Made by a program: the position numbers and the translations under genes. From Thermodesulfobacteriota bacterium (GTDB taxonomy: Bacteria; Desulfobacterota; WTBG01; CAIYCZ01; CAIRTM01), in the NCBI GenBank assembly GCA_028278025.1, contig JANQFE010000024.1:75128-139127 (forward strand): a stretch of 64,000 nt of DNA, given 5' to 3'. This document shows, one piece after another, positions 6,649-25,192 of the stretch (position 1 is the first letter of the stretch; every line of letters starts with the position of its first letter). The notes below the pieces were generated by a model, which had not been told where the DNA came from, did not search any database, and saw only the letters and a list, made by a program, of their open reading frames with translations.

Positions 6649-7812
6649 TTAATAACTAATTTTAAAGTTGTGTGTTAGTCTACTTATTTGATTTTCTCTA
6701 ACCTCAACATTACCTACCCACTTTTTATCACCTGCTTTAAGTGCAACAATATGGTTTTTGGCCAAAATCTTGTCGATAGTGAGAGGGGTTTCACCATAGC
6801 GCTCATTTTCTATAAATATCTCTGCCCGAGGAGGGGTTGAAAAAATCACTAGAGAGCCATAGATCGGTTGAAGGTCTATTTTTATTGAACGTTGTTCTTT
6901 TGAGATATTTGAATTAATCTCGTATTCACTATAGCCCTCTTTAATAAGTTTAATATGGTGATTTGCACAACTAACCTGTGGAATAGTTATAGGGGTAACA
7001 CCGATAATTTTATTGTCGAAAATTATTTTCGCGTTGGCCGGTTTAGAACGGATATTTACATCAATTATATCAAGATCGAATGAAAAATGATTGCGACTGT
7101 TCGTAACACTCAGGTATTTAAGAATTCCTTGAGAATTGACGGGTTTAAACATTAATGTATAGTCACCGATTTTGACAGCTTTTAATATCGCTGGTGTAGT
7201 CCCGGTAATTTTCCCAGGTTTTAATGTAAACTTTACATTCGGCGGGTTACTAGTAAGTGCAATAGTGCATAAGATTTTTGATACACCGTCGGCAGGATAT
7301 TGATTTGTTGTTATTATATTTGGCTGATTGTTTTCCGACGTTGGTTCTTTTTTTGCAGAAAGAAGGTTTGCAATTTCTTTATATCCCTCATCTTCAGCAT
7401 AATCTATTGATGTTTTTCCTTTTTTATCTTCTATGGTAGGATCAGCACCACTCTGAAGCAGAACTTTAAGAGCCTCAGTCCTTCCGTATAGTACTGCCAG
7501 ATGCATAGGTGTCTGGCCTTCATCATTTTGGGGATTCAGCTCTGCCCCAGACTCTATTAAAAGTTTTACAAATTCAGGACGGTCGCCAATTATTGAAGAA
7601 GCAATATGTAAAGGCCTCGAATCGGATAGTCCGACGGCATTAACATCTGCACCCAATCTAATCAGATCCTTAGCCCGGCTAATTTTACCCTGGATAGATG
7701 CATTAAAGAGTTTATTATTGAGATCAACGCGCTGATCTTCAAGAGCAAAAGCATCCCGCAAGAAGCATGCTATTAAAAACGATATTAATAAAAGGTTAAT
7801 CTGCCGTTGCAT
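6649..7812 (-). CDS. secreted ankyrin-repeat and PEGA-domain protein
   Basis: 387 residues. A signal peptide (1-23) is followed by three to four ankyrin repeats (about 35-150: DSRPLHIAS, EGQTPMHLAVLYGRTEALKV, KGKTSIDYAEDEGYKEIANL), a linker, and two or three PEGA domains (about 185-387; NIRSKPANAKIIFDNKIIG and STPPRAEIFIENERYGETPL are typical beta-hairpin repeats). PEGA domains are small surface or periplasmic modules; ankyrin repeats bind proteins. The combination argues for a periplasmic adaptor within the cluster. No catalytic motif is seen. Confidence 0.85.
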   Translation of the reverse strand: MQRQINLLLISFLIACFLRDAFALEDQRVDLNNKLFNASIQGKISRAKDLIRLGADVNAVGLSDSRPLHIASSIIGDRPEFVKLLIESGAELNPQNDEGQTPMHLAVLYGRTEALKVLLQSGADPTIEDKKGKTSIDYAEDEGYKEIANLLSAKKEPTSENNQPNIITTNQYPADGVSKILCTIALTSNPPNVKFTLKPGKITGTTPAILKAVKIGDYTLMFKPVNSQGILKYLSVTNSRNHFSFDLDIIDVNIRSKPANAKIIFDNKIIGVTPITIPQVSCANHHIKLIKEGYSEYEINSNISKEQRSIKIDLQPIYGSLVIFSTPPRAEIFIENERYGETPLTIDKILAKNHIVALKAGDKKWVGNVEVRENQISRLTHNFKISY

Positions 7813-7871: not shown

Positions 7872-8573
7872 TTAGTTACCGACTAAAAGTCTAAAGGTGG
7901 GTTCCAGAATCGGTTTAATTATTTGCCAATATCTTTGGAGATCTAAAGCAGAAAGTCTCAATCCCATTGCTATTGAGACCAGTACGCCTATAGAAAAATA
8001 TATAAATGTTTTTTTATCAAATTTTTTAATAGATTCCGTGAGAAGCTGAAATTGTGAACGAATAAATGACTCTTCTTCTTCATTTTTTGAGAACATTTTT
8101 GTGACTTTTTGTTCTATCCGGTCAAAGTTTTCTTTTAATTTTTTTATCTCTTCCGGTGATATCAAAACATTTTTTTTTGCTTTCACAAGAGTGAGCCCAA
8201 AATCCTTCTGTACACGGGCTATTTCAGCCCAGTAATCTGGGGCTGCTATTTCCTTTTTGAGTTCATTTGCCCACTCCTTGACATGTTCAAGTTCTTCTTC
8301 CCAATTACCCGCCACCAACTTCTTTTTCTTGTTATCATCTCCCGGAAAGTACTCTGCGGCCCATTTGGTGTCTGATGCATTCCTTGTAAATCTAAAATAC
8401 AGCTTTCTCTCGTCCTGTATATAGCTTAGAACTGAAAAAGAAAAAACTTCACCTTTAACCTTTGATTCATGTTTTGACCAATCAAAATCGTGCAAAAAAG
8501 GTTTAAGACCTATATATTCAAGTACGAGGTAGACATCATTCTTTTTAGCTCTCATCAAAGTTCGATCAATCAT
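7872..8573 (-). CDS. tail-anchored cytoplasmic protein of unknown family
   Basis: 233 residues with no signal peptide: an N-terminal globular domain (1-100), a charged helical or coiled-coil region (about 95-190), and one membrane segment near the C-terminus (about 193-211). The bulk should therefore lie in the cytoplasm, tethered to the inner membrane. It is 18 bases downstream of the 1148-residue helical protein gene, so the two are likely partners. No family recognised. Confidence 0.7.
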   Translation of the reverse strand: MIDRTLMRAKKNDVYLVLEYIGLKPFLHDFDWSKHESKVKGEVFSFSVLSYIQDERKLYFRFTRNASDTKWAAEYFPGDDNKKKKLVAGNWEEELEHVKEWANELKKEIAAPDYWAEIARVQKDFGLTLVKAKKNVLISPEEIKKLKENFDRIEQKVTKMFSKNEEEESFIRSQFQLLTESIKKFDKKTFIYFSIGVLVSIAMGLRLSALDLQRYWQIIKPILEPTFRLLVGN

Positions 8574-8591: not shown

Positions 8592-11500
8592 TCATACGAT
8601 CTCATCCTCTTCAATTTTATTGACGATTTTGAAAACACTCTGCTTCAATACAGCATTTTTCCTAAATTTGACTTTAAAGAAAGCAAGATAAAAACGACTG
8701 ATGCTGTCTGAATTATCTTCAGCCAGGTATTCTTTATAATGTTTTATGGAAGACAGAATAATATCATTGACGTTATTCGGGTGATCATCATAATTTATAA
8801 TTTCATTCTTATACATAGTAAGAGAAGACAGAAAACTAAGGTAATCTTGGAGATCTTTTGTCATATGCTCTATTTTTTGAACGGTCTCGGCAGCATTCGT
8901 CCCGATTCCCAATGAATCCAAAATATTATATTGATCCGGATTGTTTTGTTTTAAGTATTTTTCCATTAAGTTAACCCACTCATGAAACAGGTCTTTCCCC
9001 GATTCAACAGAGTCAAAATCACCGGTAATCAGCCTTTGCCACATCTTAACGACAACGTTTGCCCTGTCATAGCTTGATTTAAGATTAATAATATGTCTTT
9101 TCAGCTTTTCTACTACAGGGAATCTTGAATAAGGAGTGGAGACTGCTTCATAATCATCATAAAGATTTTTCAGGTCTTCCCAATTTTTGTTCGGTACTAT
9201 TTCATTCAACCTATTTAATATTTTTATGATAAAACCATAGAGGCCGATAAAATCCCTGCTATTTTGCCTATACCTTTCTATTTCCTGGGGATTAAACAAC
9301 TGGGCGTCATCAAAAAAATCTTTAAAACCCTCTATCGAATTCCGCCTTGAGTTGATCGTATCAAGTTCGGTTTCAATATCATTTACTTCATATATCTCCA
9401 GTCCTCTTTCAACAAGATCATTCCAATTATTGAGTTCATGAGCTGTCCTGCGAATACTTTTTATAACAGAGCCGATTTCATGTTCATCTATTTTCAACCT
9501 TTTTTTAAATGCCGAAAACACTTCTATTGCAGGTTTTATTTCCCCTTTCGCTTCAAGATAAGCTATATAGCCAATAACATCTTTTTTATATTCCTTTTTA
9601 GGGCCGGATTTTGTTGAAACAATTTCAAGACCTTCTTTAATTTTTTTTTCATAAAGTGCTGCCAGCAAACGCAAACGGTTGGATACTTTTTTATCAAAAT
9701 TTTCTATCATTGCTAGTCTTGAAGCTATCTTACTGATGCTCTCATAATCTGACCGCAGCAGCATTTCTTCACACTCTATCTTTAGCAGGCCCACACTGTC
9801 GGCCCTCGGAGCATATTCAATGACAGCTTTCATAATTGCGTTTTCAGGGTCCGATATCTGCCCGGTAGTTTCTTTTTCTTTAACAGCCAACGCCATATAA
9901 GCCTGGATGATTTCCATTTCTGTAGCTGAACTGATGGAGTCATATTTATCCTTTAGAATTTTGTCTGCTTTCAAAATTTCACCAGAGTGTAATACTTCAT
10001 AAAAAACCGGCAGAGGACGAAAATGATCAAGCCTTTTTTTAAGTGTTTCGATCTGTTCGTTAAATTCTTCCCAGAACGGTCTCTTATCAATGAGTTGATT
10101 AATACTTTCAAGGATATTTTGGTAAGCACCCGGTTTTCCCTTTCTAATAGCTCCGGGCATCTGCTGGTCTTCAACAATTTTTATGAGCTGGGATATTTTT
10201 CGCTGTACTGCTTCCTGGATTTGAATAGTCAAGCTTTGTTTGCCCAACCATATTCTTTGAAGAATTTTCTTTAAATCCAGCAAGTGTTTAAATAGATCCT
10301 TATCCGCAACATCTTTTAGAACTGTTTCAATATTCTCCACAAGAAAGTTGATATCGTCATAGCCTTCTTTCCCATATATGAAATATTTCACCCGTTCTAT
10401 TTCTCCGTCGCATAGGAGTTCTTGTAACCACAACTTCCTGTACAATAGTAGTATGTTGGAATGATAATCTTTCAAACGCTCGGCTTTAAGAGAAAGCCGG
10501 TCCAGACTATTCATATTGTTCTCGATATTATTCGGATAATCGATTGTGCAATCACAAAGCAACAGTATAGGATGTATTAAAGGATTTAAATGTTCAAACT
10601 GTTTTAAAAAACGTGAAAATGTATTATAGTCAAGGGAAGTGTTCAGGAATATTCTCAGCGCCTCAACCTCCTCGTCACGCATCAATTGTAATACTTCGGA
10701 CAAATTAAAGTAATTTAAAATTTCGCCGGCAGGTAAAACTTCTCTTGATTTATTGCCAGGCAAAACAGTATCGATATTGAAAATTTTCTCCGGAGATCGA
10801 ACAAATTCATCAAGACGGTTTTTAAAGTGATGGCACACTGCATCGGAGATCTCTTTAAAGGCACGGTCAATAGACTTGCTATCAAGATAGCGACAGAAAT
10901 CATTTGTTTTCATTAATTGATCAAATCGACCTCTTAGATCATAAAAGGCTTCAAGGTCTTTCAGTGCCTTCGCTCGTTCTTGCCCCAGCCATAATTTTAC
11001 AATATTGGTGAGACCACCTGTTTCCATCTTGCCTTCAATATAATTAATAAGCTCTTTCTTTTGCGTTGATGTGAGTTGTCCAAACGGCTCTGATGAAAGC
11101 AAATCCTGTAAAAGTGATAGACACTGACTGAAATCGCGATTTGTTAAAAATGTGGAGAGTTCGTTTAATTCATTTTGAAGTTTGGATAAGATGTTTTGAA
11201 GTTCGGATAAGATGTTGACTTTGGCTTTAACCTTTTCTTTTGCTAAGCGAGGGAGGGAGGGGTGAACATCCTTATACCATTGATTAAAGCCTTCTAAATC
11301 GAATGCATGGTATATCCTGTCAAATTCTTTAATCCTATTTTCAATCCCAATCCCTTTCGTTTTGTTTTTCAGGAGTGCTTTAACCTTGGGATACAAAATA
11401 TCATCCGCAAACGAGGCACATACCAGATCAACAACACCCTGTACGAGATGTAAACCAGCTTCTTCATCTTCAAGTTCTGCTGTCAGGTACTGATTTATTC

Positions 11501-12038
11501 TTTTTATAAATTCCGTTTTTCTTTTTTCCAGTTCTTTTTTAAAGTCAGGTGTCCTTGTGGTATCGGTCTTTTCTTCATCAGAAAAAATCTTTGTAAGCTT
11601 ATTGAAACCCGGGCTATTTATATTAAATCCCATTTTCTGGAGCAAATGGTCAATGTCCATCAGGATATCGGCTTCCTGACGTGTTGCATTTTTTGTATCC
11701 TCACCGAGACATTTTTTATTGATACGGTTAATTATTTGTGTGAGTTTATGGCTTGCCGAAGACTTCAGAAACTTTTGCGACGATCTGATTGTGGATAGTC
11801 GGCTGCGAATTTCCAGTAACACCTGTTGATTTTCGTTCATTGATGCTTCCTGTTCAAGACGGGAGATAAAGGAACCTGTTTTACGTCGCACCTCGTGTAG
11901 AAGACTTTCATCGCCAGATTCACTGACATTATTGAAAATGCTGAGTGCTTCTTCCAGGTCTGACGTTAAATCAGTTTTAGAGATTTTTTTTTTAAAATCG
12001 GCTATTTGATTATCGTTAAGACTAATTTTATGAGACAT
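8592..12038 (-). CDS. 1148-residue helical cytoplasmic protein
   Basis: No signal peptide or membrane segment; almost entirely charged alpha-helix with scattered coiled-coil stretches. Near residues 273-292 a short tandem duplication gives LSELQNILSKLQNEL, visible in the DNA as an imperfect 21-base repeat near 11180-11225. No Walker, MIDAS or enzymatic motif is visible. The size and composition suit a scaffold, spectrin-like rod or helical-repeat adaptor linking the cytoplasmic parts of the membrane proteins encoded around it. It follows the 738-residue bitopic protein gene with a 29-base gap. Confidence 0.75.
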   Translation of the reverse strand: MSHKISLNDNQIADFKKKISKTDLTSDLEEALSIFNNVSESGDESLLHEVRRKTGSFISRLEQEASMNENQQVLLEIRSRLSTIRSSQKFLKSSASHKLTQIINRINKKCLGEDTKNATRQEADILMDIDHLLQKMGFNINSPGFNKLTKIFSDEEKTDTTRTPDFKKELEKRKTEFIKRINQYLTAELEDEEAGLHLVQGVVDLVCASFADDILYPKVKALLKNKTKGIGIENRIKEFDRIYHAFDLEGFNQWYKDVHPSLPRLAKEKVKAKVNILSELQNILSKLQNELNELSTFLTNRDFSQCLSLLQDLLSSEPFGQLTSTQKKELINYIEGKMETGGLTNIVKLWLGQERAKALKDLEAFYDLRGRFDQLMKTNDFCRYLDSKSIDRAFKEISDAVCHHFKNRLDEFVRSPEKIFNIDTVLPGNKSREVLPAGEILNYFNLSEVLQLMRDEEVEALRIFLNTSLDYNTFSRFLKQFEHLNPLIHPILLLCDCTIDYPNNIENNMNSLDRLSLKAERLKDYHSNILLLYRKLWLQELLCDGEIERVKYFIYGKEGYDDINFLVENIETVLKDVADKDLFKHLLDLKKILQRIWLGKQSLTIQIQEAVQRKISQLIKIVEDQQMPGAIRKGKPGAYQNILESINQLIDKRPFWEEFNEQIETLKKRLDHFRPLPVFYEVLHSGEILKADKILKDKYDSISSATEMEIIQAYMALAVKEKETTGQISDPENAIMKAVIEYAPRADSVGLLKIECEEMLLRSDYESISKIASRLAMIENFDKKVSNRLRLLAALYEKKIKEGLEIVSTKSGPKKEYKKDVIGYIAYLEAKGEIKPAIEVFSAFKKRLKIDEHEIGSVIKSIRRTAHELNNWNDLVERGLEIYEVNDIETELDTINSRRNSIEGFKDFFDDAQLFNPQEIERYRQNSRDFIGLYGFIIKILNRLNEIVPNKNWEDLKNLYDDYEAVSTPYSRFPVVEKLKRHIINLKSSYDRANVVVKMWQRLITGDFDSVESGKDLFHEWVNLMEKYLKQNNPDQYNILDSLGIGTNAAETVQKIEHMTKDLQDYLSFLSSLTMYKNEIINYDDHPNNVNDIILSSIKHYKEYLAEDNSDSISRFYLAFFKVKFRKNAVLKQSVFKIVNKIEEDEIV

Positions 12039-12067: not shown

Positions 12068-14284
12068 TTAAGATTTTTTCATTTGGTAATATTTCGCTAA
12101 ATAGACCGAACTTTTAATGACTTTTTCTCCTTCCAAGTTACAATATCCCCATTCTTCTACGTCAACGATTGAATCGGGTAACCATGGTTCAATAACTTTT
12201 TCCACACAGTCTTCACCGAATTTTTTGGACCATTCGTTTAATACATAACCTCTTTTAAAATTATGGTCAGCCTCCTCATGCAAAGTCGGATCAAATACCG
12301 TCTTGCCGAATTTAATCTTATCAGGAATAATATCATGGCCCTTTTTTAAGAAATCGTAAAATCCGATGGAAATTCGAGAATAAGCCGATGCCAGCAGTTC
12401 TATCCTGGAATCGTTGTTTATTGCCTTATAATAGGTCTCAATCAGCCGGGTTGAACGAAAAGCAAAGGTGAACAGTTGATGCCAAAACGGTTCAATAATA
12501 GAGTTGATAAAATCATCGGTTAAATTTACACTGTTTTTTTGCATTAATGAATTTTTATAACGACCATAATAGATATTTATAAATTCCTCCCATTGATCAC
12601 AAAAGAATCGGTGATCAATATATTTGTCACAGACCACCATATCTGTATAATCATTAGAACCAAGAAGTTCTTTTAAGTCATTAAAGCTATGATTAATTGC
12701 CGGAATAATAATATGTAAACCCTTTGATGAAATATCCTTTATTATGTTTTCTCCGCACATATTTAAAAATTTAAGGCTTTCTATTGTCCCTCGGCTTGTA
12801 ATACTGTTTAAAAAACTCATGTTGACGTCTGTAGCTTCTAGCGTCTTAAATGTATTTTCCAGGGGCTCGCCTATTTGATTTATTATGCAGAGGTCATTTT
12901 TATTTTTATTATAAAATTCATAATAATTTTTGAATTCTTTTGTGAAAAAAATTAACAAAGTTTGTGTAACTTCCAAATTATTAGAAAACTTTAATTGATC
13001 AGAATTTCCCCGGTTAGGAAGCTTAGAATGTTGTTCACTATCTATGTTATCAATTGTCGATATTCTCTTTCCAGGGAGTTGATCCGGTGTTTTAACTTTT
13101 TGTTTATTGAGTTTTGCAAGAAGATCAATAATCATTTCTTGGTTCTTGTCCCAATCAATAAGATCTTTTATTATGTCAAAGATTTTTTTTCTATTATCTT
13201 CCAGAATGTCCAGGTATTTATTATTTTCAGGTGTATCAAATTCGCTTTTGTATGAAACAGCATTTTTAAGGGAATCGCTATGCTGCATGAGGAAAGCATT
13301 ACATTTTTTATTAAAAGATTCTATTTTATCTATTATATTTTTTTTCTCTTTATCTTGTTGTTGAGTTTTTTCAATAAGCATTTTTATTATTTTTTTGATT
13401 TTATCAATAGATGAATCTTGGCTATAATGAATAGTTTTTATATCTTTTTTTAATTGTTCTGATGCTTGGTTACAAGTTGAGTCTACAATTATCTTCAACT
13501 TGTCCTCAATTGAATGTTCATCTTTTTTGGCCTTTTTTATGGTCGAATAAAATAATAAGCTTTTATATGAAATAAATAATATAAGAACTAAAATTAAAAA
13601 AACTATTATAAATATTGACCTTATTAATTTTTCTAGATATGGAATTGAGCTATAATATAAAGAAGATAAAAAATCATATGCCAATATTTGTTTATTTTGG
13701 GAGTTATTTTCATAATATTGATAATTTTGTTTAGGAATGTATTCTTTATCTATAACATTTACAATTTGGTCAACTAAATCACCTGTACTATCCATATTAT
13801 CATTATTCTTAATATTAAAAAAATTATTGACAGACTCAATTTGAGCTAAAAGATACCCCCTTTCAGATATAGCATCTTGAATATTTATTATTTCAAAATT
13901 TGTAGAACCAGTTGCTTCAATAAGCCTTCTTAATGTGGCCTCGTCACGTAGTTGCTTCATGATTCTGATAGGTTTAGATTCTCCTGTAACTTCTTCTAAA
14001 TCATCATTTGTAGTTTCTAAAAATGAATTAATATCATTGATAAAGGCTGAGGAAAAAGGATAGTTGTAAAGGGATTTTGATTGAGTTGCAGATGTACAGA
14101 TAATAAATTGAAAAAACTTCTCGCCTTTTTTAAATAAAATGTTTGTTGATCTCTTTTCATCTGTTCGAACTATCTCATTAATCACAACTGTTATTTTCGT
14201 ATCCACAGCTTCTACATTTAGTGGAATAAAAAAAATGAGATGAAAAAATAAAATAGTAAAGAATAGAATGTTGCTTGTTTTCAT
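12068..14284 (-). CDS. bitopic protein: periplasmic domain, one TM, large cytoplasmic region
   Basis: 738 residues. Signal peptide (1-26, VEA), soluble region 27-220, membrane segment 222-240 followed by basic residues (KKAKK), then about 500 cytoplasmic residues with coiled coil (about 255-390) and an unrecognised helical domain up to the end. The layout (envelope part, one membrane crossing, large cytoplasmic part) repeats that of the VWA-Hsp70 protein encoded just upstream. Its ATG overlaps the stop of that gene in an ATGA, implying coupled translation. Unknown family. Confidence 0.78.
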   Translation of the reverse strand: MKTSNILFFTILFFHLIFFIPLNVEAVDTKITVVINEIVRTDEKRSTNILFKKGEKFFQFIICTSATQSKSLYNYPFSSAFINDINSFLETTNDDLEEVTGESKPIRIMKQLRDEATLRRLIEATGSTNFEIINIQDAISERGYLLAQIESVNNFFNIKNNDNMDSTGDLVDQIVNVIDKEYIPKQNYQYYENNSQNKQILAYDFLSSLYYSSIPYLEKLIRSIFIIVFLILVLILFISYKSLLFYSTIKKAKKDEHSIEDKLKIIVDSTCNQASEQLKKDIKTIHYSQDSSIDKIKKIIKMLIEKTQQQDKEKKNIIDKIESFNKKCNAFLMQHSDSLKNAVSYKSEFDTPENNKYLDILEDNRKKIFDIIKDLIDWDKNQEMIIDLLAKLNKQKVKTPDQLPGKRISTIDNIDSEQHSKLPNRGNSDQLKFSNNLEVTQTLLIFFTKEFKNYYEFYNKNKNDLCIINQIGEPLENTFKTLEATDVNMSFLNSITSRGTIESLKFLNMCGENIIKDISSKGLHIIIPAINHSFNDLKELLGSNDYTDMVVCDKYIDHRFFCDQWEEFINIYYGRYKNSLMQKNSVNLTDDFINSIIEPFWHQLFTFAFRSTRLIETYYKAINNDSRIELLASAYSRISIGFYDFLKKGHDIIPDKIKFGKTVFDPTLHEEADHNFKRGYVLNEWSKKFGEDCVEKVIEPWLPDSIVDVEEWGYCNLEGEKVIKSSVYLAKYYQMKKS

Positions 14285-17200
14285 ATTTTCCTCTCGTTCT
14301 TTTCCTGAAACATATTAAATGGCCACCAGTCAGAGGCGGTAAAGTCGGTTTCCATAAGCGGGACTTCATCATTCAGACTTTCGGTTTTTTTTGATCCGCT
14401 GACTTTTACGATTATCGAAGGCTCTCCAAACCGGGTGTTGCGATATTTGCTCGTCATGGAAATTTTCAATTCAGTATCCGTCAGGCTTGTGAACTCTTTA
14501 ATCTCAGCGTCATTTAACTCGGCAAGCTGGTTGAAGTAATTTTTATTGAAAACAAAATCTTGAAAGCTTTGCCCGGACTGTTCATCCTTGTTTGAATCAA
14601 AAAAAGATTCCGGCGAAGCGCAGTAACTTTGCAGAAAGAGCAGCCTGTCGCAAAAGCGTGAGTCAAGGACATAACTCCATTCATAGTAAGGCAGACCTTC
14701 TCCTTTAATTGTTTTGCTACTGACAGACTCATCATGGCGGAAAGCAGTCTTCCAGCTCCATTTATTTCCATCGTACCATGCTATACCGAACACACCAAAA
14801 ATCGGGTATTTTTTGAACAACTCCCGTTCTCCGCTGTTCATGGCCCAGGCAAGCGCACCCATAGAGACCGCCGCCTTCAGTTGTTTTGCATCCAACACAG
14901 GACAAAAAATTGTTTTTTCTGAATTATATATTTCACCAAGTCTTTGTTTGATTCTTTCCTTCAGCCCAGGCAGTTGAGCAGTCCGCCCGGAAAAGATTAG
15001 GGTATCGATTTCAAAGTACCCTTCTTTGTTGCGTAAAACGACATCCAGCACTTCATCGACATTTTCCTTATAAAACGGTTCCAGGGCGGCCTGGATATCA
15101 GAAAATTTGAGAGCAATTTTCGGGTATCTTCCCTCCAAAGAAATGCCATATTTGTCGGGAAGATCTTTCCTCCATTCGGATTCCTGCTTATTGATTTTTT
15201 GCTTATCAAACTGAAACGGTTCTGTGCTGTGCTTAAAAGGGAGCCATAACATGACGGCATCAATATTTTTTTTGTTTTTAGCATAAAAGCTCGTCATATC
15301 TTTTTTCAAGTTTCCCAGTCCATTTTTCATTGAAATCAAAGACTTGGAGTAAGCTAACTTTTTGTCTTTATCGGGTATGTTCGGGGGAGGGCCGGAAATA
15401 TAACAAGCGTATTTAAAATTAATATCAGCCAAATCATTTGTCAGTCTCAGCAACTTCCTGTGGATGAGGTCAGCCAGTATTTGGTCAACCCGGTTGCCTG
15501 CACCGTGGAGGGTATGCATGGAAAGCAAGTCAATGGATTCAAGTTTGCCGACTTTACCGTCCGCTTGATGCCGTCTGATTTTACGGAGGGAAACATCAAG
15601 GGTTCCGGCACCTATATCATAGATCAAGACCGTTTCATCTGGGGGGGGAGGCTTATTTCCAATAATAAGCTTTTGCCGGTAGGTATAATACCAGAAGGTC
15701 ACTGCATCGGATTCACTGATTGAATCGAGAAATTTACATTGAGGAAAACCCCGGCTGATACACTCCTTCATAAATTCAACATGGTTGTACAAAAATGAAT
15801 TCGGATGCGTAATAATCATGCGTTTGCATTTGCCGAAATCAGGAAGTTTTTCAGTGATGAGAGGACTAAAATAATCTGATGCTAATTTGTCGTAAACCTT
15901 TGCTAAAAGCTCATCAAGTCTTATTTGTTTTCTGCCATTTTGTAAGTTTATCTCTCTGTGGTTCAAGGCGATATGTTGTTTTAAATAAGAGACAAGAGTG
16001 TTCGTGTCCGGGCTGTTTGCCAATTCCGCGGCGGAGGCCGGTAGTGAAATGGTGTAATCCTCGGCATTGCCATCCGGTATATTTATATTCAAAATACTGG
16101 GAATAAAGTATGGATCTTCCTCTATTGCCGCCACATTAAGTTTCTCGTGCAGCGGCACCAGACATTCTGAGGAGTCATCAATTGTACCGTCCAGAACCTG
16201 GCCCATGTTTGCGGCAAAGGCGACTGCAATAGCAGAGGTGCCGAAATCAACGCTGATTTGCTGGGGTCCGGGTTCTTTCGTGACCTTAATTGCCATTCTG
16301 AGCTCAAATATATTTTCTTCCTGTGAGCCGTCTTTATGGTTGATCCAGTATGTTATTTTAAATGTTGCATTAATTTTGCCTTCTTCTGCCCCGGATTCGA
16401 ATTTTGTCTTCCCTGTCTTCAAATAGAATGTCAGTTTTTCACATGAATCAATCGAGTCGCTGCTAAAAGTTCTGTTCAAATTGAAAACGACTAGATCTTC
16501 TTCAGCTTCATTGTCCGTTTCGACTGAAATCAGACTCAAGTTTTTGCCCTTTACCTCTTTGATACCTGAACAGTAAATCTTGTTTTCCGATCCGGTTACT
16601 TTAACCATTATCGTATCCTCTCCGCTTGTGGCCTGATTACCCAGCTCAAGGGTAAACAATTGCAGCGAACGATTCGGATTTGTGGCAAGAGCGTCTTCAT
16701 CAATTTTGATGTAACCTTTTTGTTCATAAAGGTCGATATCATAGGCCGGCAGCTTGATGCCGGACGGCGTGCGAAGTGGTATGGGAATACCCGGATCGTC
16801 TTCTTTTGCGGAATACTTAATGTTGAGATACAACTCTGCCTCTTTTTTGTTCGGGAGAACGCAAATAGAATCCAGCTCTTTGGGAAACTGTATGTGCTCA
16901 GATCCTCGGACCGAAGCAATACGAAGGCGGTATTTATCGCCGCCGGGAAAAGGAGCAGACAGTTTTGAAAAATCGATTTGAAGCGGAATCTGGATGCCTT
17001 CCTTAGAAATTTTACCGGAAATGTGAATCATATCCTCTTGGGCGGGATCAAGCTGAGAACCGACATCATCTACTGCAATATCAGGTTTCTTAATTGTTAT
17101 ACCATCCACAACCCAATCTCTTTGAAACTCATCATCTATCTCATCAAGCCGTTCCAGTTTAACGGAAAGCTGGATATCCACCGGGGTTTTAAACGATTTC

Positions 17201-19152
17201 GGCGAAACGTCTTTTAATAAAAGATAGCCTAAATCCCGAGTTTGGCCCTTTTCATATTCAAAGTGATCCTTATTACTCTCACCTGAGTGGACAAAAGTTT
17301 CACAGGTCACCTGAGCAACTACCGGTTCGATTTCCAATCTAATTGAAAAGGGCTCTGAAGAGCCCGGTGCCCTGCCTTTTTGCTGCCAGTTAAGGGTGAG
17401 GGGTATATCCAGTTCACGGGCAGTCCTGGATGGTTTCATATTATTGATATCAACAATGGATTCGGGATCAGCCATAATCCAAAGGTCTTCTTCGGGCTGC
17501 ACAGTTACATCATCAAGGGATTTATCGCACTGATGACTGAATCCGTAAAACTTGTCATTACCGAGAGTCAGCCTGTCATATACATTCCAATCATCTGCTT
17601 CCTGAAGTATTATTTTTCTCATCCTGGCCTTTGTAGAAAGCCATCTGAGTTCCAGGGGTTTTTTCTTACGTTGATCAATAACACGGCATTTGCCGATTAC
17701 GACCCGACCCCGGGAATCTGTATTCAAATCGACTTTGACCGGATGCGGATCTTCGATTGCACTAATTTCAATTTCAGGTCTTGAGGGAACAATAAGCATA
17801 TATATAATCATGCCCAGGGCGAGCGAAACTAAAACCACGATTATGGCGGTTCTTACATTGTTTTTGAAAATCTTTTGTTTTGTATAATAATCGGCGATTT
17901 TTTTCTGACTCCACTCTGGGTGATTGCCCATCATTTCATCGGTGACAGGATCATCTTTGTCTCCCCCAATATATAAAATATCTTCGATAGTAACCGGGAT
18001 TTTGTTTTTAACCTTTACGATCTGGCCGCCGTATATCCGGTCGTTTAACCTGAAGGAACCCTCAACCTCTATCCGATCAGGGAACCTGCTGCGATCAAAA
18101 CCATTCAAATAAATTGCCTGCAAAGCTTTTAAAGGTTTAACAGGCATTTCATCATCTATCCCCCTGCCGCACAATTTATAACTGTAATGAAGCGGCACCA
18201 GATCAGGATAAAATTCCTTTAGCCTCTGACTCAATTCCAGATTAATAGTAGAAGCATATGTGCCGTCGGTCTGCCGCATGAGCGTTGCAGCAGGAATAAG
18301 GTCAAAAACCGGATAGAACCCGAATGATTTTATAGGTTTTACTTCCGTTATCAGGACCTTAATGGGGAGTATTTTGTTGTCAAGGAAATATGTCTTGGTA
18401 TCCTCATTGATCTGGTTTAGATTTGTACTCAGGTAAATACTGCTTTCATAAACGCCGTACACATAGTTTGAATTGATTTTGCGAAACACATCCAGCAGAT
18501 AATCAAAGCCTTTTATTCTTTGATGCTTCATTAAATCACGTATCTCGGAGGCATCCATACCGGGTTTGTTGAGAATTTCGTCCGAAATACGGACAATAAA
18601 GGTCCGGCTAAAAGGTGGTGGGTCCTTCAGGTCTCTGTATAACTCGCCGCTTTTACAAATAGCCATGGGTATGGCCGCGGTTACCACGGTCCAGTTTTGA
18701 ATCTTTCCCCTGCCTCTTTCATATTCTTCGAAGGGTATACTTTTAAGGCGGTTAAATGAAAAGTCCGACTCAAAAGATTTTTTTATTTTTCCCTTTGAAA
18801 TGTAATTGCTTCTAAAGTCAGGATAATTATTAGGAAGGCCGAAGAGGTAAAAAGAAACGTAATCCCTGTCGCGGTCAAAGATTATTGATCCAAATTTGTC
18901 ATAATCCTTCTTTAATATCTTAGGCAAAACATTTGTTAAAAAATGACTTAATCGCTTCCTGGCAGCATACTCGTCTCCGTAAGTTAATAATTCGATCTTG
19001 TCTCGAAATGTTCCCGACTGGTCAAGGAGAATAATAATATGATTTGCACCCGATGACGAAGCAATTGCTTGTCCAGCAGTAAAAACCAAAAAAGACACAA
19101 ATATAGAAAACAAAAGAATTTTTCTTAATTGTGATGATATAAATAAATGCAT
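14281..19152 (-). CDS. VWA domain fused through a membrane segment to an Hsp70/actin-like ATPase
   Basis: 1623 residues. Signal peptide (about 1-31); VWA domain starting at HIIILLDQSGT with a MIDAS-like DQSGT at 44-48; membrane segment about 436-455; a long beta-rich region (460-960); then an Hsp70/actin-type domain from 965. The latter shows phosphate-1 ISVDFGTSA (969-974), phosphate-2 LIYDIGAGTLDVS near 1190, and an adenosine-type motif FSGRTAQLPGLKERI near 1420. In this topology the VWA faces the periplasm and the ATPase the cytoplasm. The ATPase lacks an obvious DnaK substrate-binding domain, and its fusion to VWA is unusual. Overlaps the next gene by ATGA. Domain calls are secure by motif; the role is inferred. 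Confidence 0.88.
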   Translation of the reverse strand: MHLFISSQLRKILLFSIFVSFLVFTAGQAIASSSGANHIIILLDQSGTFRDKIELLTYGDEYAARKRLSHFLTNVLPKILKKDYDKFGSIIFDRDRDYVSFYLFGLPNNYPDFRSNYISKGKIKKSFESDFSFNRLKSIPFEEYERGRGKIQNWTVVTAAIPMAICKSGELYRDLKDPPPFSRTFIVRISDEILNKPGMDASEIRDLMKHQRIKGFDYLLDVFRKINSNYVYGVYESSIYLSTNLNQINEDTKTYFLDNKILPIKVLITEVKPIKSFGFYPVFDLIPAATLMRQTDGTYASTINLELSQRLKEFYPDLVPLHYSYKLCGRGIDDEMPVKPLKALQAIYLNGFDRSRFPDRIEVEGSFRLNDRIYGGQIVKVKNKIPVTIEDILYIGGDKDDPVTDEMMGNHPEWSQKKIADYYTKQKIFKNNVRTAIIVVLVSLALGMIIYMLIVPSRPEIEISAIEDPHPVKVDLNTDSRGRVVIGKCRVIDQRKKKPLELRWLSTKARMRKIILQEADDWNVYDRLTLGNDKFYGFSHQCDKSLDDVTVQPEEDLWIMADPESIVDINNMKPSRTARELDIPLTLNWQQKGRAPGSSEPFSIRLEIEPVVAQVTCETFVHSGESNKDHFEYEKGQTRDLGYLLLKDVSPKSFKTPVDIQLSVKLERLDEIDDEFQRDWVVDGITIKKPDIAVDDVGSQLDPAQEDMIHISGKISKEGIQIPLQIDFSKLSAPFPGGDKYRLRIASVRGSEHIQFPKELDSICVLPNKKEAELYLNIKYSAKEDDPGIPIPLRTPSGIKLPAYDIDLYEQKGYIKIDEDALATNPNRSLQLFTLELGNQATSGEDTIMVKVTGSENKIYCSGIKEVKGKNLSLISVETDNEAEEDLVVFNLNRTFSSDSIDSCEKLTFYLKTGKTKFESGAEEGKINATFKITYWINHKDGSQEENIFELRMAIKVTKEPGPQQISVDFGTSAIAVAFAANMGQVLDGTIDDSSECLVPLHEKLNVAAIEEDPYFIPSILNINIPDGNAEDYTISLPASAAELANSPDTNTLVSYLKQHIALNHREINLQNGRKQIRLDELLAKVYDKLASDYFSPLITEKLPDFGKCKRMIITHPNSFLYNHVEFMKECISRGFPQCKFLDSISESDAVTFWYYTYRQKLIIGNKPPPPDETVLIYDIGAGTLDVSLRKIRRHQADGKVGKLESIDLLSMHTLHGAGNRVDQILADLIHRKLLRLTNDLADINFKYACYISGPPPNIPDKDKKLAYSKSLISMKNGLGNLKKDMTSFYAKNKKNIDAVMLWLPFKHSTEPFQFDKQKINKQESEWRKDLPDKYGISLEGRYPKIALKFSDIQAALEPFYKENVDEVLDVVLRNKEGYFEIDTLIFSGRTAQLPGLKERIKQRLGEIYNSEKTIFCPVLDAKQLKAAVSMGALAWAMNSGERELFKKYPIFGVFGIAWYDGNKWSWKTAFRHDESVSSKTIKGEGLPYYEWSYVLDSRFCDRLLFLQSYCASPESFFDSNKDEQSGQSFQDFVFNKNYFNQLAELNDAEIKEFTSLTDTELKISMTSKYRNTRFGEPSIIVKVSGSKKTESLNDEVPLMETDFTASDWWPFNMFQEKNERKI

Positions 19153-19170: not shown

Positions 19171-20532
19171 TTAGTTACCTGAAAGAATTTCAAAACGAAT
19201 CTCGACAGCTTTCATGGATTGAGTGGCTCTACTGTGTTTGTCATCGTCATCCCCCATTCCTTTACCTGTACACTCATCTATAGAATCCATAAAATTCTTG
19301 AAATGTTCTTTGTGTGAAAACAATGCAGCCTTTAACATTCTATCTTTAACTGCATTTGCTCTTCTTTGTGAAACGATTTTATTTCTTTGTTTCCGAGACG
19401 CTTGGCTGGAATACTCTGAGAAACCCTTATCGTCAGCATACCCAAAGATACTTATAGCTAATTGCTTTTGCTCATTTTCAATTAATTCAACAATTTCATT
19501 TACAAGACCATTGACATGTATCTTCATTTGAGGCGTAAGCTCATAATCACCGTTTTTATTATAAGGTGGCAATATATAAGAATAAAATTCTTTTTTATCT
19601 GATTTTATTCTTTTAAAATTTTTACCTTCATACATTTTTTTGCTAACCAAACTATAACTATTTATCATTATTTTATTATTTTTTAATATTGAATAAGGAT
19701 TTATTCTTATATAATATACATTTTTATTTGTATTTAACTTTATATGGCTATAATTAGTAAAATTATTTCTAGTATTATAATCAAATCTTATCTTAGTATT
19801 ATTGTCTTTAAACTGAAAACATTGTGTATTTTTTATTTCTGGATTCATGAAATAATGTGGTGAATCCTCAGAAATATCTAACAGTTTTTTGAATTCTGAT
19901 GATAACGCTAGTTCAGTGTCGATTTCACAAATAAATTCTTTCTCCTCTGTTAAAAATTTAAAATCACTTCTTAATTGATTAAATGTTTCGCTTTCTATTT
20001 TCATCTCCATCATAACTTTGATTGGATTAGAGTATGACGGAAATACATGAACTTTATATATATAATCCTCCTTTTCAATACAATCATCTGATTCATTCAT
20101 AAAAACCTTATGTGCAAAAAGAATATATTTGCTATTCTCTTTAAAAATTTCAAATATACTATTAATTGGTCTGTTTCTATTTGGACTATTATTGAATTTA
20201 CAATAAATATACATAGAAACAAAATTATTTAAATTTAACATAAAATAATTATCTTTATTTGTTGCTAAGTCAACACATTCTTCATCTTCAGGCTTATTTT
20301 TTTTAAATCTACTTTCATCTTTATAGAATGTATAATTAATATCTTTTCTATTCTTTTTGATTTTGAAAGCATGAAATACTCTCGTAACAGCTCCATCTTT
20401 AGTTTCTTCTTTTAATTCTTCTTTTAAATATAAGAAATTTATATTATTTTGAGCATAAAGCAATTCTGTTTGATTAAATAAAGCTGAAATGCTAAAATTT
20501 AAATAAATCAAAAAAATAATTTTTTTTACCAT
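19171..20532 (-). CDS. OmpA-like peptidoglycan-binding envelope protein
   Basis: 453 residues from ATG 20532, chosen because it starts a clean signal peptide (MVKKIIFLIY to LLYAQ); in-frame upstream starts exist at 20544 and 20577. Residues about 330-450 carry an OmpA-like motif (ISIFGYADDKGFSEYSSQAS followed by a basic SQRRANAVKDRM), which binds peptidoglycan in that family. The central part is very rich in Asn, Lys and Ile, and the DNA here is far more AT-rich than the flanking genes, suggesting a different origin or relaxed selection. The gene overlaps the end of the preceding gene by about 40 bases. It probably anchors the complex to the cell wall. Confidence 0.82.
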   Translation of the reverse strand: MVKKIIFLIYLNFSISALFNQTELLYAQNNINFLYLKEELKEETKDGAVTRVFHAFKIKKNRKDINYTFYKDESRFKKNKPEDEECVDLATNKDNYFMLNLNNFVSMYIYCKFNNSPNRNRPINSIFEIFKENSKYILFAHKVFMNESDDCIEKEDYIYKVHVFPSYSNPIKVMMEMKIESETFNQLRSDFKFLTEEKEFICEIDTELALSSEFKKLLDISEDSPHYFMNPEIKNTQCFQFKDNNTKIRFDYNTRNNFTNYSHIKLNTNKNVYYIRINPYSILKNNKIMINSYSLVSKKMYEGKNFKRIKSDKKEFYSYILPPYNKNGDYELTPQMKIHVNGLVNEIVELIENEQKQLAISIFGYADDKGFSEYSSQASRKQRNKIVSQRRANAVKDRMLKAALFSHKEHFKNFMDSIDECTGKGMGDDDDKHSRATQSMKAVEIRFEILSGN

Positions 20533-21130
20533 TTTCTTTTTCATCCTCAGTATGTTTTTTTTCTTTTTTATTTTCAAAATTAACTAAAACAACAAAATAT
20601 TTATTATTTATGTCTATAGTTAAATCATTATTAAACAAAGATTTAAATTTTGATGATATATCGTCTATTGGAGTTTTATCTATTTGAAGTTTTGATGTTT
20701 TAAACATTTTATTGTTTGCCAATATTACAACCTCTACTAATTCATGGTAAGCTTCAGGCAAATTAATTATTTTTATATGGAAACAAAAATCCATTATTCT
20801 TCCAGATGATCTGAACTTTCTTTGTTTGCCGAAATCATTACCATGAAAATATATTGATTCTCTTTCATTTAATTTTGATATTGTTAATTTTACAGCACAT
20901 CTATTAATAATATAATTGTATGTATATGAATCTTCCAAAATTTTCACCTGATCACTCAGGTGTTTATTTTGTTCATTAATGCCCTCAAATGAACAGTAAG
21001 CATACCAGGCCAAAACACCTGTCAAGATTGCTATTATTGCTTTTAGAATGACTATGCACCATTGAGGAGTCGCTGATTTTTCACAACAATCCACAATCGA
21101 TTGCTTCAATCCTTTAATCTCTTGCTCCAT
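20492..21130 (-). CDS. small single-pass membrane protein, AT-rich gene
   Basis: 212 residues: cytoplasmic N-terminus with two adjacent cysteines, a membrane segment at about 26-47, a short coiled coil (50-70), then a beta-rich soluble domain and a lysine/glutamate-rich tail. The AT-rich composition is shared with the overlapping OmpA-like gene downstream, so the two may have been acquired together. It starts 18 bases after the 1347-residue VWA-tubulin gene. No family recognised. Confidence 0.68.
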   Translation of the reverse strand: MEQEIKGLKQSIVDCCEKSATPQWCIVILKAIIAILTGVLAWYAYCSFEGINEQNKHLSDQVKILEDSYTYNYIINRCAVKLTISKLNERESIYFHGNDFGKQRKFRSSGRIMDFCFHIKIINLPEAYHELVEVVILANNKMFKTSKLQIDKTPIDDISSKFKSLFNNDLTIDINNKYFVVLVNFENKKEKKHTEDEKENGKKNYFFDLFKF

Positions 21131-21148: not shown

Positions 21149-24100
21149 TTAAATTGCTTTTCCACCGGCATGCATAATAATCTTCAATAACATTATTACC
21201 TCATTCAAAAACTCATCCCGGATTCTTATTGCCTCATCCGGAATGTTACTACCACTAACAAAATCCGTAGCAGCTTTAACCAAATCAGATATACTGCAAT
21301 CAATCTCTGGAATTGTTTTTGATGAATCGAAGACATCACGCCGGGTGATAACGTAGGATGTCATGGCCTTTTCCAGGTCGAGTTGGTCGCGGGCCTGGGT
21401 CAAATAATAAACAGTGCCGTTATTCTTAATGGCCAGGCACCTGTCAACTTCGGTTTCCGGTATGCGTTTTAGCAGCTTCCCGGTTAGGAAAAGATATAGA
21501 AACTGCTGCAAGCGGTCCATGTTGCCGAAGTATTGGACAAAGCGGGGAGAGAAGCGGCCCTGCGCATCCAGTCTGCCGATTTCACGTTTATAAAACTCCT
21601 CCAGCATGCATGCTTTCTGCTCTTCTTCAAAAAGGTAGGGAAGTTTATGATCATCACCCGACTCAAACGATGCAAGACTCTTTGTGTATGACAGAGATTC
21701 CGTTATGGGTATGTGGGTTTCAAAAGAAAGCCTCCCCCTGCAAATCGGCACAGGATAAAGATCATCAAATTTTTCTGCGTCACTGTTTGAAGACTGCACT
21801 TCAATCGCTTTTGATGAAACGAATCTTTCAATAAAATCCCCTTGGGCGTTTATGCCCGGTCCCCGGATAAAGGCATTTTCACTGAGGAAACCGGTCATAT
21901 ACCGTTCTGCGGCAATGTCGGCAAATGCTTCAAAATACTTTTGAGGTTTGTCGTCAAGTCCCGACATCTCCAAAATAAAATCAAGGAGCTCCTCATTGTT
22001 AACGGGATTATGGAAACTCCTCGTGATGTCGGAATGAACGGCAAGCTCAAGCAGCCCTTCAAGGTTAAGTTCGCTGACCTGACTTACATCCGAACTCCAG
22101 AAAGATTCTTCAATTTGATCAAAGCCGGTCTCACTGACCTTCCATTCAAAACGGTTAAGATACTCCCCGTCTTCAATAAGCCCGGCAAAATGCATGTTGT
22201 ATAACCGGTCAAGAAATTCTTTATCGGCAACGTACTTTATGGTTTCAAGCTCCAGGCATTTTTGCAGATGGTTTTCTGCCGCTTTCAAATTCTCAAACAA
22301 ACGCCGGGCCATTCCCTTAAATCCTGGGGGCAAGCCCTGCTGCTGGTCTTTTGGGAAACCGTCAGCCAAGCAGAAAAACCATCGCCTGACCTGCTTATGA
22401 ATGCTTTCCGTAACTACTTTATAAGCTTCAATCAGATCCAGAAGATTGTCCACCCGTGATTCCTCAAAACAGACCTGGTCTTCATAGGCAATGCTGTAGA
22501 TGGGAATTCGCTGCAAGTTAACCGGAACCGCGGCCAGCATATCTTCCAGTTTTGCCAGGTGCTGCATTAACCTGATTATCCCGCCGCTCCGTTCTTCTTC
22601 TCCTTCCGCAGCAGCACCGTTTAAAATCCAAAGCGCCCATTCCATAATCCTGCGAAGAGCCAGCAGCATGTTTTTTTTCAGATAAAACCGCGCCGGCTCA
22701 CCCTGTGCCTGCATGCCTGCTTCTGCCAGGGCTTTCTGCCACGGCCGAATGATGTTGTCCGTCTCAATGCCGGATGAAAGTTCGGCCAGTTCGGAAATAG
22801 CTGAAAAAACCGGGGGACACGGCGATACGAGCTGTCGCCCGACAAACAGCTCTTTTAAACCTGTCCGGGTCGTAAGCACGCCGTCAGAAGGGACGAACAG
22901 ATTGTTTACCATTTTCAGCCGGTTAAATTCAGTACTGAAAAGCTCGAATATGAAACGAAGCCGCAGGTAATTTAAGATATTGGCAACCGGTAACTTAATA
23001 GAACGGCATCCGATGTTGATGATTCCTGCTTTCCCTGTTTTAATTGCCTGGCGTGCTGCTTCAGGATTGATTTCTGTTTCAAAGCGATTCCGTAAAGGAT
23101 TTAGTTGGGGTGCGAACTGGGACATAATATCGGCAACCATCGGGTACAGCGACAGACTTTCGTTACCGCCGCGAGCCGGATCAATCAAAAAGTTATGATC
23201 AAACAAAGCAAACCGGTTCAACCGGACATTACCGGCCGGGTACTGAATTGAGAGCGGAAAATCACTGTTAACGATAAAACGTTCCCACTCACGCAGAAAC
23301 GCAAGGGAATTCAGATTGTAGATATCCCCATCATCTTCCCGCATCTGAAATCCGGACCTGCCGCAGATGAAGCTGTAAGTAGTAATATGCTCTTTCTCTT
23401 TAAATCGTCCGGCAAACCAAATCGCCGTGTCAAGAAGAATACCCGAGGAACAGCCCCCTACGGTTGATCCGGTAAAGAAAAGCTGACACCCTTCCTCTTT
23501 AAGCAATTCTTCGATAAATGAAGCTGCTTGCTCTAAAGAAGCGGGACCGCGATTGTCATTTTCTTGCATGGCCTTAAAATAAGACAGGCGGCCCAGGTGT
23601 CTGAACCTATTGGTTCCATAACTCAGGTTAAACGTTTCCCTGTTGAGACTCTCTGTTGTCTGCCGGTCATACCAGCCGGCATAGTCCGGATGTGTATTAA
23701 TAATCTCCTTGTGAAAGCTGTATAATTCAGAGGGTAAAGCGCAGATCTCGTTTTCGGAAAGACCGATGCCCCCCCATTCTATCCGGCTCCTGTCTCCTGC
23801 ACAGCCGGTATCAATGCAAAGAAGTCGTATGCGGTCGGCAGGGAACGTGCCCATATTAAGGTCGGTTACTATTTTTTTAAAATAGGTCAGTACCCACCGG
23901 CCGGTATGTCCAAAACCCACAGCAAGTGTCGGCCGGAATTGCATTTCTTTCTTTTCCTCAAGCTTGACCAGTTCATTCGGGGTAACTGTAAGGGATTGAA
24001 ACTCTTTCCGTTCCGGCGGGGGTTTTACCTCGATTCCGGACTTGAGGCCGCGAAACATTGAAAGCAGTATCCAGAAAACCGGATTAAGCAGAACAAACCA

Positions 24101-25192
24101 TACCCACCACGCAAACGCCGGCAGAACCAGGGCATAGGGATTATCATTGGATTTTACGCCAGGCTGCTTGATCTGGTCCATATCATGCCAGACCATATCA
24201 GCCGACTTCGGACTTATCTTATGCCAGCCGAGTCTGTAGGGGACCAGCTGGTAAGGGACTTCCTGGGCCGTGGTTTGCAGAAAAGGCAAAAACCAGTGAA
24301 TTTCCCATGACTGCGATTTTACTGATTCCGGCATGTGGACTGTAGAAAAATTACCGATAATAAATGCCTGGTCATTTATATATTCCGTAATCATTGCCCG
24401 TGTTCCCCCCGGACCTTCAATGCCGGCGGCAATGCTTTCATAAAAACGCATCAGATCTTCTCTGTCCGTTGCGTTATAATATTCTTTGTCGCCCTTGCTT
24501 CCGGGTCTTTCTGAGGCCAATTCCTCCATCAGCACCGTATTGGCCTCACCGATCCCGATACATATAATTCTGATCCCTTTTTGTATTATCTGCCGGCCCA
24601 CTTGCAAAATTTCCGGATCACCGACTCCCCGACCGTTGTGCGGATAACCATCCGACAGCAGGACAATGATTTCCTCGGCCTCTTCACGATGGGAAGCTTG
24701 AAGTAACTGTTCCGCCCGTTCAAGGCCAAAGCCGATGTCCGTAGCACCGCCGCCCCGTATCTTTGTTATACCGTTAACCAAAGCATGTTTTTTATCTGTT
24801 ATGTCACAACAGGTCTCCACCTCGTCATCATAACAGACAACCCCCACCCTGCAGGTTTTCAGATCCACCATATTGACAAATTTAATACAGGCCTCTTTTG
24901 CTTTTGCCAGACGGCTGCCCGGAGCACTTCCGCCCATGCTTTCCGAGCGGTCAATTACCAGTACAACATGATAGGTTTTTTGTTCGGTTGGTCTTGTTTT
25001 TTTCATGCCCCTGGCATACAGCCTCACATTAAAAGGACTGTCCTTAAACAGTATTTTCCGGTCTGATACTCTGGTCAGCAGCCGTGAACGACGCTCAGGA
25101 CTACACCGTCTTGTCCCCCAGAGGAAAACAAGCAGCCCGACGACAACATACAGGCCGAAAAGGGCCAGAAGTATGATTGCTAAATATGACAT
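21149..25192 (-). CDS. membrane-anchored VWA-tubulin-like fusion (FtsZl type), 1347 aa
   Basis: Membrane segment at 4-26; VWA domain about 73-260 with MIDAS DRSES (81-85), the GGGATD threonine near 151 and LLSDGYP (Asp 181); hydrophobic stretch 355-380; then a tubulin/FtsZ-like domain from 422. That domain has the first glycine loop GFGHTG (426-431) and a tubulin-signature T4-type loop TGSTVGGCSSG ending at 584. The first loop is less canonical than in the other two tubulin-like proteins here. The C-terminal 700 residues are helical and unrecognised. Basic residues follow both hydrophobic stretches, so membrane topology is ambiguous. It lies 5 bases after the 1277-residue paralogue gene. Confidence 0.87.
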   Translation of the reverse strand: MSYLAIILLALFGLYVVVGLLVFLWGTRRCSPERRSRLLTRVSDRKILFKDSPFNVRLYARGMKKTRPTEQKTYHVVLVIDRSESMGGSAPGSRLAKAKEACIKFVNMVDLKTCRVGVVCYDDEVETCCDITDKKHALVNGITKIRGGGATDIGFGLERAEQLLQASHREEAEEIIVLLSDGYPHNGRGVGDPEILQVGRQIIQKGIRIICIGIGEANTVLMEELASERPGSKGDKEYYNATDREDLMRFYESIAAGIEGPGGTRAMITEYINDQAFIIGNFSTVHMPESVKSQSWEIHWFLPFLQTTAQEVPYQLVPYRLGWHKISPKSADMVWHDMDQIKQPGVKSNDNPYALVLPAFAWWVWFVLLNPVFWILLSMFRGLKSGIEVKPPPERKEFQSLTVTPNELVKLEEKKEMQFRPTLAVGFGHTGRWVLTYFKKIVTDLNMGTFPADRIRLLCIDTGCAGDRSRIEWGGIGLSENEICALPSELYSFHKEIINTHPDYAGWYDRQTTESLNRETFNLSYGTNRFRHLGRLSYFKAMQENDNRGPASLEQAASFIEELLKEEGCQLFFTGSTVGGCSSGILLDTAIWFAGRFKEKEHITTYSFICGRSGFQMREDDGDIYNLNSLAFLREWERFIVNSDFPLSIQYPAGNVRLNRFALFDHNFLIDPARGGNESLSLYPMVADIMSQFAPQLNPLRNRFETEINPEAARQAIKTGKAGIINIGCRSIKLPVANILNYLRLRFIFELFSTEFNRLKMVNNLFVPSDGVLTTRTGLKELFVGRQLVSPCPPVFSAISELAELSSGIETDNIIRPWQKALAEAGMQAQGEPARFYLKKNMLLALRRIMEWALWILNGAAAEGEEERSGGIIRLMQHLAKLEDMLAAVPVNLQRIPIYSIAYEDQVCFEESRVDNLLDLIEAYKVVTESIHKQVRRWFFCLADGFPKDQQQGLPPGFKGMARRLFENLKAAENHLQKCLELETIKYVADKEFLDRLYNMHFAGLIEDGEYLNRFEWKVSETGFDQIEESFWSSDVSQVSELNLEGLLELAVHSDITRSFHNPVNNEELLDFILEMSGLDDKPQKYFEAFADIAAERYMTGFLSENAFIRGPGINAQGDFIERFVSSKAIEVQSSNSDAEKFDDLYPVPICRGRLSFETHIPITESLSYTKSLASFESGDDHKLPYLFEEEQKACMLEEFYKREIGRLDAQGRFSPRFVQYFGNMDRLQQFLYLFLTGKLLKRIPETEVDRCLAIKNNGTVYYLTQARDQLDLEKAMTSYVITRRDVFDSSKTIPEIDCSISDLVKAATDFVSGSNIPDEAIRIRDEFLNEVIMLLKIIMHAGGKAI

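Follow-up and report, generated by a model that had tools for sequence, protein, structure and literature searches.

What would a cell do with a single polypeptide that seems to place an adhesion-type domain outside the inner membrane and an Hsp70-type ATPase inside it? The question is raised by a minus-strand ORF at 14281–19152 of the window, by which we mean the whole 64,000-nucleotide stretch analysed here. The ORF starts with ATG and runs for 1623 codons with no internal stop. Its product, hereafter the window protein, comprises a signal peptide, a VWA-like domain, a transmembrane helix, a β-rich region, an Hsp70-type ASKHA domain and a C-terminal tail, in that order. The initial annotation had listed a signal peptide, a DQSGT sequence, a membrane helix, some 500 β-rich residues and the motifs DFGTSA, DIGAGTLDVS and SGRTAQLPG, and we found all of these where it had placed them. 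It had also raised the prospect that the frame is an assembly fusion. This is unlikely because GC3 is even along the ORF (0.42–0.47 except at the ends), the frame stays open for 4.87 kb within a 179-kb contig, and the next gene overlaps it by 4 nt.

The signal peptide (residues 1–31; 19060–19152) was identified by hydropathy and an AxA site, with an h-region at residues 12–30 and a cleavage-like end between QAIA and SS. Residues from about 36 to 235 (18448–19047) probably form a VWA domain, as judged from motif order and hhalign. MIDAS-like residues occur in the expected order, with D44-x-S46-x-T48 in LLDQSGT (DQSGT, residues 44–48), T155 and T158 in WTVVTAA, and D191 in VRISDE. Alignment by hhalign to 26 VWA domains gave an E-value of 0.002 and paired the MIDAS threonine and the second aspartate. 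In a decoy test, the region ranked third of 251, with two of 250 decoys scoring higher; we suspect that at least one of these is itself a diverged VWA. Neither PF00092 nor PF13519 of Pfam matched the region even at E 10, and our own VWA profile, built mostly from proteins of related loci, reached E 0.12. A MIDAS regular expression proved too strict, recovering one true VWA. The VWA domain of the initial annotation thus keeps its ordered MIDAS residues and a marginal profile match, though not a Pfam match or a clean separation from decoys. Proteins with a signal peptide, a VWA domain and a transmembrane helix, some of them equally diverged, adjoin Tubulin_2 genes in other genomes.

A single transmembrane helix follows at residues 437–456 (17785–17844), with a mean KD of 3.03. 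Owing to the signal peptide and the cytoplasmic location of ATP, the VWA-like domain is probably outside and the ATPase inside, but the charges flanking the helix point the opposite way, with more positive charge on the proposed outer side, against the positive-inside rule. Beyond the helix, residues 459–960 (16273–17778) appear strand-rich and β-sandwich-like by hydrophobic periodicity: β exceeded α in 63% of scoring windows, the highest of the regions measured, versus 32% in a helical neighbour. Family libraries returned nothing for these roughly 500 residues.

By profile, alignment and model, residues 963–1440 (14833–16266) are assigned as an Hsp70-type ASKHA nucleotide-binding domain, with phosphate-1, connect-1, phosphate-2 and adenosine motifs in Hsp70 order. 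The phosphate-1 motif, DFGTSA (residues 969–974; 16231–16248), was located by Hsp70 profile and alignment, and its DFGTS core occupies residues 969–973. In a 28-sequence alignment, K1058 (15979–15981) aligns with the catalytic lysine of Hsp70 (K70 in DnaK) and E1147 (15712–15714), within SISESDA, aligns with the connect-1 glutamate (E171 in DnaK). The phosphate-2 motif, DIGAGTLDVS (residues 1179–1188; 15589–15618), lies within YDIGAGTLDVS (1178–1188), and the adenosine motif, SGRTAQLPG (residues 1388–1396; 14965–14991), within IFSGRTAQLPG (1386–1396). Both were recovered in order by phmmer to DnaK and by profile, the former also by alignment. Across the 28-sequence alignment, the Hsp70 catalytic positions D969, K1058, E1147, D1179 and T1184 are all retained; one glycine of the adenosine motif is replaced by serine.

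An independent Hsp70 profile, composed of Hsp70-like proteins of viral contigs alone and excluding the window protein, matched with an E-value of 1.8e-5 in three collinear segments (966–984, 1108–1234 and 1351–1410) in Hsp70 order; the best of 500 shuffled controls reached E 2.6. Family-library scans gave the PADLOC model PDC-M61B at 1.1e-6 and an HscA model at 1.1e-4, and tblastn found Rhodococcus Hsp70 family proteins at E 1e-3. On the whole protein, Pfam, NCBIfam, PHROGs and PADLOC returned just weak Hsp70-type or partition-protein matches. Pfam PF00012 scored the isolated region at 10.8 bits against a cut-off of 20.6, and gave no match above cut-off for the whole protein.

An AlphaFold model based on the 28-sequence alignment had a pTM of 0.71, with pLDDT above 80 across much of the core; with a two-sequence alignment, the pLDDT was 32. 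Compared with solved structures, the model matched Hsp70 nucleotide-binding domains best (Foldseek 2.9e-17), and it superposed on DnaK with a VIA Z of 29.6 and an rmsd of 3.2 over 354 residues. This fold match supports the assignment but is not independent proof of it, since the alignment behind the model consisted of Hsp70s. We considered and rejected an actin or MreB identity: the genome's MreB-like protein aligns marginally, and the best 50 structures listed all belong to the Hsp70 family. The Hsp70/actin-like ATPase that the initial annotation saw at the C-terminus, in residues 965–1450, can thus be narrowed to the Hsp70 type.

The domain shares motif order, catalytic residues and predicted fold with the nucleotide-binding domain of DnaK. 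Unlike in DnaK, it sits at the C-terminus of a membrane protein, carries a long insertion between the phosphate-2 and adenosine motifs, and scores under the Pfam cut-off. The tail that follows, residues 1441–1623 (14284–14832), matched no family, and Pfam recognised no substrate-binding domain past residue 1440. Because of this, and because of the score below the Pfam Hsp70 cut-off, we call the ATPase half Hsp70-type and not an Hsp70 chaperone. A membrane-tethered chaperone that folds or pulls proteins at the inner membrane and receives its substrates through the external VWA domain would suit an Hsp70-type ATPase and the extended peptides that VWA domains bind according to the literature. We consider it quite improbable, given that the tail resembles no substrate-binding domain, that a Pfam scan of the operon proteins found no GrpE and no DnaJ or other J-domain protein, and that the C-terminal ATPase reverses the canonical Hsp70 arrangement. 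The chaperone of the initial annotation was set aside on these grounds, together with the missing gathering-score match to Hsp70.

It is somewhat less improbable, though still unlikely, that the domain is a nucleotide-binding scaffold with no turnover, binding ATP or ADP structurally and merely holding a complex together. Its strong divergence (10.8 bits against 20.6) and the serine in the adenosine motif would fit such a role, and little or no ATP hydrolysis has been proposed for the Hsp70 homologues of CoCoNuT systems. Against this, the phosphate-1 aspartate and threonine, the lysine, the connect-1 glutamate and the phosphate-2 aspartate and threonine are all kept.

The main clue to the setting of the window protein, absent from the initial annotation, is an operon of tubulin-like proteins with VWA-transmembrane fusions. 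Thirteen minus-strand ORFs occupy 35807 to 6266, overlapping or separated by no more than 59 nt, and besides the window protein they encode three Tubulin_2 proteins, three clear VWA proteins and one OmpA protein by Pfam. The first gene (34899–35807) encodes a CAP-domain protein with an N-terminal anchor (PF00188, 3.4e-21), followed by a 779-residue protein with a signal peptide, a VWA domain and a transmembrane helix (32549–34888; PF13519, 5e-12). Next is a Tubulin_2 protein of 1152 residues (29049–32507; PF13809, 3.7e-45, and alignment); Tubulin_2 is the FtsZ-like 1 (FtsZl1) family. Two fusions come after it, each ordered transmembrane helix, VWA, transmembrane helix and Tubulin_2: one of 1277 residues (25198–29031; PF13809, 2.3e-23; PF13519, 1.1e-15) and one of 1347 residues (21149–25192; PF00092, 5.3e-21; PF13809, 5.6e-17). 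The GTP-binding loop is altered in both, to GGTSSG and GGCSSG, respectively, whereas the unfused protein retains an intact GGTGSG. The genome's Tubulin_2 genes were found in this operon only.

Between the fusions and the window protein lie a 212-residue single-helix membrane protein (20492–21130) and, just upstream of our ORF, a secreted protein with a peptidoglycan-binding OmpA domain (19171–20577; PF00691, 7e-7). Directly downstream, a 738-residue product (12068–14284), which has a signal peptide, 190 residues, a transmembrane helix and a cytoplasmic part, overlaps the ORF by 4 nt and is followed by a helical soluble protein of 1148 residues (8592–12038). Neither has a credible Pfam match, and both are candidate subunits. 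The run closes with a 233-residue protein with a C-terminal transmembrane helix (7872–8573), a protein with a signal peptide, ankyrin repeats and PEGA (6649–7812; Pfam), which may belong to the same system and face the wall, and a 127-residue membrane protein. Divergent from the operon is a large SNF2-type helicase-like ORF (39343–41997, plus strand), with a SWIM-like Cys/His motif seen by eye.

On its predicted gene content, this operon is a system of the FtsZl1/vWA/OmpA kind. FtsZl1 genes were reported to occur alongside VWA and OmpA genes and many transmembrane proteins, and membrane remodelling was proposed as their function (Makarova and Koonin 2010, PMC2875224). As in those operons, Tubulin_2, VWA and OmpA genes lie in one run here. 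In the described systems, the OmpA-family protein is frequent but not universal, and so is a diverged P-loop GTPase or Ser/Thr kinase (PMC2875224). Pfam recognised neither of the latter among the operon proteins, two large ones of which carry no annotation. The operon departs from the described systems in two respects: Hsp70 is absent from the text of that paper (PMC2875224), whereas here an Hsp70-type ATPase is fused to a VWA-transmembrane unit, as are two of the tubulin-like proteins.

We surveyed 79 Tubulin_2 loci from GTDB contigs and 20 stretches from genomes of the same phylum, in which Tubulin_2 is uncommon (14 of 395 genomes). A Tubulin_2 gene was present in 95 stretches, including some that overlap one another. 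In 44 of these, the same strand carried a VWA gene no more than three ORFs away, in most cases with a signal peptide or transmembrane helix before the VWA domain and a helix after it. None of the 95 held VWA and tubulin in one ORF. A separate, tubulin-linked gene for an Hsp70-like protein with an N-terminal extension occurs in two other genomes. In genome G029, the order is a protein with signal peptide, VWA and transmembrane helix, a small transmembrane protein, tubulin, and then a 966-residue protein with a Zn-ribbon, a strand-rich region and Hsp70 (PF00012, 6.3e-7). In JAUHVS010000054.1, a 933-residue Hsp70-like protein of the same layout comes directly after tubulin. The three Hsp70-like proteins show no detectable sequence homology in their strand-rich regions. 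A profile of the three gave full-length matches in just those genomes, out of 50 Tubulin_2-bearing and 395 same-phylum genomes, which is a biased test of tubulin linkage because all three were found beside tubulin.

The same domain order, which the initial annotation had suggested looking for, was not found: neither the 395 same-phylum genomes nor plasmids yielded a homologue of the full fusion, peptide-pattern scans of GTDB contigs and viral contigs gave no close relatives, and within its own genome the protein matched only itself. Counterparts of its two halves do recur elsewhere, as separate VWA and Hsp70-like genes beside tubulin. In the literature searched, we found no account of a VWA–Hsp70 fusion. 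Three whole-protein matches in the 395 genomes (E 0.002–0.007) were treated as chance or MreB-like, and Hsp70-like genes in genomes G004 and G153 were rejected as relatives; they belong to a different family, and no tubulin was seen adjoining. In G153, an 815-residue Hsp70-like protein at L205:5566–8011 lies beside a UvrD-like ORF and a 1240-residue ORF, and looks like a separate Hsp70 family, possibly defence-related. Another cluster of Hsp70 with a membrane GTPase is found on a Rhodococcus plasmid (L043:7341–13827), where GrpE, two Hsp70-family proteins, a GTPase and a dynamin-family protein are grouped.

Piece by piece, the window protein looks like a fusion of two otherwise separate Tubulin_2 partners, joined by one helix. 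The separate genes of G029, the draft state of the assembly (170 contigs) and the lack of a second copy in the own genome or the 395 same-phylum genomes would also suit an assembly or sequencing artefact that joined a VWA-transmembrane gene to a distinct Hsp70-like gene. We regard such an artefact as highly improbable. Besides the even GC3, the open frame of 1623 codons and the 179-kb contig, two more VWA-transmembrane fusions occur within the same operon, and in G029 the two halves are separated by a tubulin gene; therefore, a simple lost stop would not yield the gene order of the window.

The chief rival to a cytoskeletal reading is defence, because DO-GTPase/GAP1-N2 systems include tubulin with vWA, or HSP70, themes. 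Some GAP1-N2 neighbourhoods contain tubulin and extracellular vWA proteins and others HSP70 lacking the peptide-binding domain, and membrane vWA proteins with β-rich domains occur in these systems (Kaur et al. 2020, PMC7159879). The operon shares with them tubulin domains, membrane vWA proteins with β-rich domains, and HSP70 minus its peptide-binding part. It could on this account be a related conflict system, in which tubulin-like or Hsp70-like assemblies react to invasion at the membrane. A TOTE conflict primase-helicase is encoded in the window (50390–52846, plus strand; PF22548, 1.3e-98), and the best PADLOC match of the window protein, PDC-M61B, is a candidate-defence Hsp70-like model. 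However, that paper describes no overlap between the tubulin and HSP70 themes, which centre on DO-GTPase and GAP1 (PMC7159879). Among the operon proteins, Pfam and PADLOC detected neither of these two, and no nuclease or other effector, although Pfam may hold no adequate models for DO-GTPase and GAP1. The TOTE gene, moreover, lies about 15 kb away on the opposite strand. On balance, we find a defence role doubtful. The TOTE gene adjoins a gene for a DUF4062-HATPase protein (48779–50242, minus strand), and the pair is likely a defence locus.

We favour, tentatively and with somewhat less than even confidence, a reading in which the window protein belongs to an envelope-spanning Tubulin_2/vWA/OmpA complex as one of its subunits and acts as a VWA-coupled, ATP-timed switch that controls tubulin-like assembly at the membrane. 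The periplasmic VWA-like domain would grip a partner through its metal site, plausibly the OmpA protein of the adjacent gene or cell-wall material. The single helix would transmit the state of this contact across the inner membrane, and the strand-rich stalk would hold out the ATPase in the cytoplasm. As the ATPase has no recognisable substrate-binding domain, it is most likely a switch of conformation or assembly, timed by ATP, and not a chaperone. We infer that it hydrolyses ATP, and that it would set where or when the tubulin-like subunits, two of them fused to VWA-transmembrane units, assemble on the membrane. The ATP-driven signalling or force across the membrane envisaged in the initial annotation is hypothetical.

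Such a role would be analogous to that of FtsA with FtsZ, or of McaA with MamK. FtsA is a membrane-tethered ASKHA ATPase that works with a tubulin-superfamily protein. The window protein likewise pairs a tethered ASKHA domain with tubulin-superfamily neighbours; its tether, in contrast, is a full transmembrane helix with a periplasmic domain, and its ASKHA domain is closest to Hsp70 among the structures listed. McaA of Magnetospirillum has a signal peptide, a VWA domain with an essential MIDAS, a transmembrane helix and a cytoplasmic tail, and organises magnetosomes along actin-like MamK (PMC9512821). By analogy, both proteins would have a periplasmic VWA domain joined through the membrane to a cytoplasmic part that acts on a filament system, but McaA has no described ATPase of its own and its filament partner is actin-like, not tubulin-like.

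A bolder and rather unlikely extension is a two-nucleotide device across the envelope. The Hsp70/actin-type ATPase and the tubulin-type GTPases would each be built into one membrane-spanning chain with a VWA head in the periplasm, and their assembly inside the cell, driven by ATP and GTP, would move or sense the cell wall directly. If true, the cytoskeleton would itself cross the membrane, with a polymer-type ATPase or GTPase and an external adhesion domain in one polypeptide.

Tubulin_2/vWA systems were predicted in 2010, with no biochemical role assigned (PMC2875224). The three transmembrane fusions described here, two of VWA with tubulin and one of VWA with Hsp70, provide sequence evidence that both sides of such a system can be physically joined. 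By uniting cytoplasmic and periplasmic components in one molecule, they answer in principle an objection that a reviewer made in 2010. They also add an Hsp70-type ATPase to these systems, as do the unfused genes of two other genomes, and as single chains they offer compact constructs for testing. By joining VWA domains, tubulin-like proteins and an Hsp70-type ATPase, the operon suggests an unstudied machine connecting the envelope with a skeleton inside the cell.
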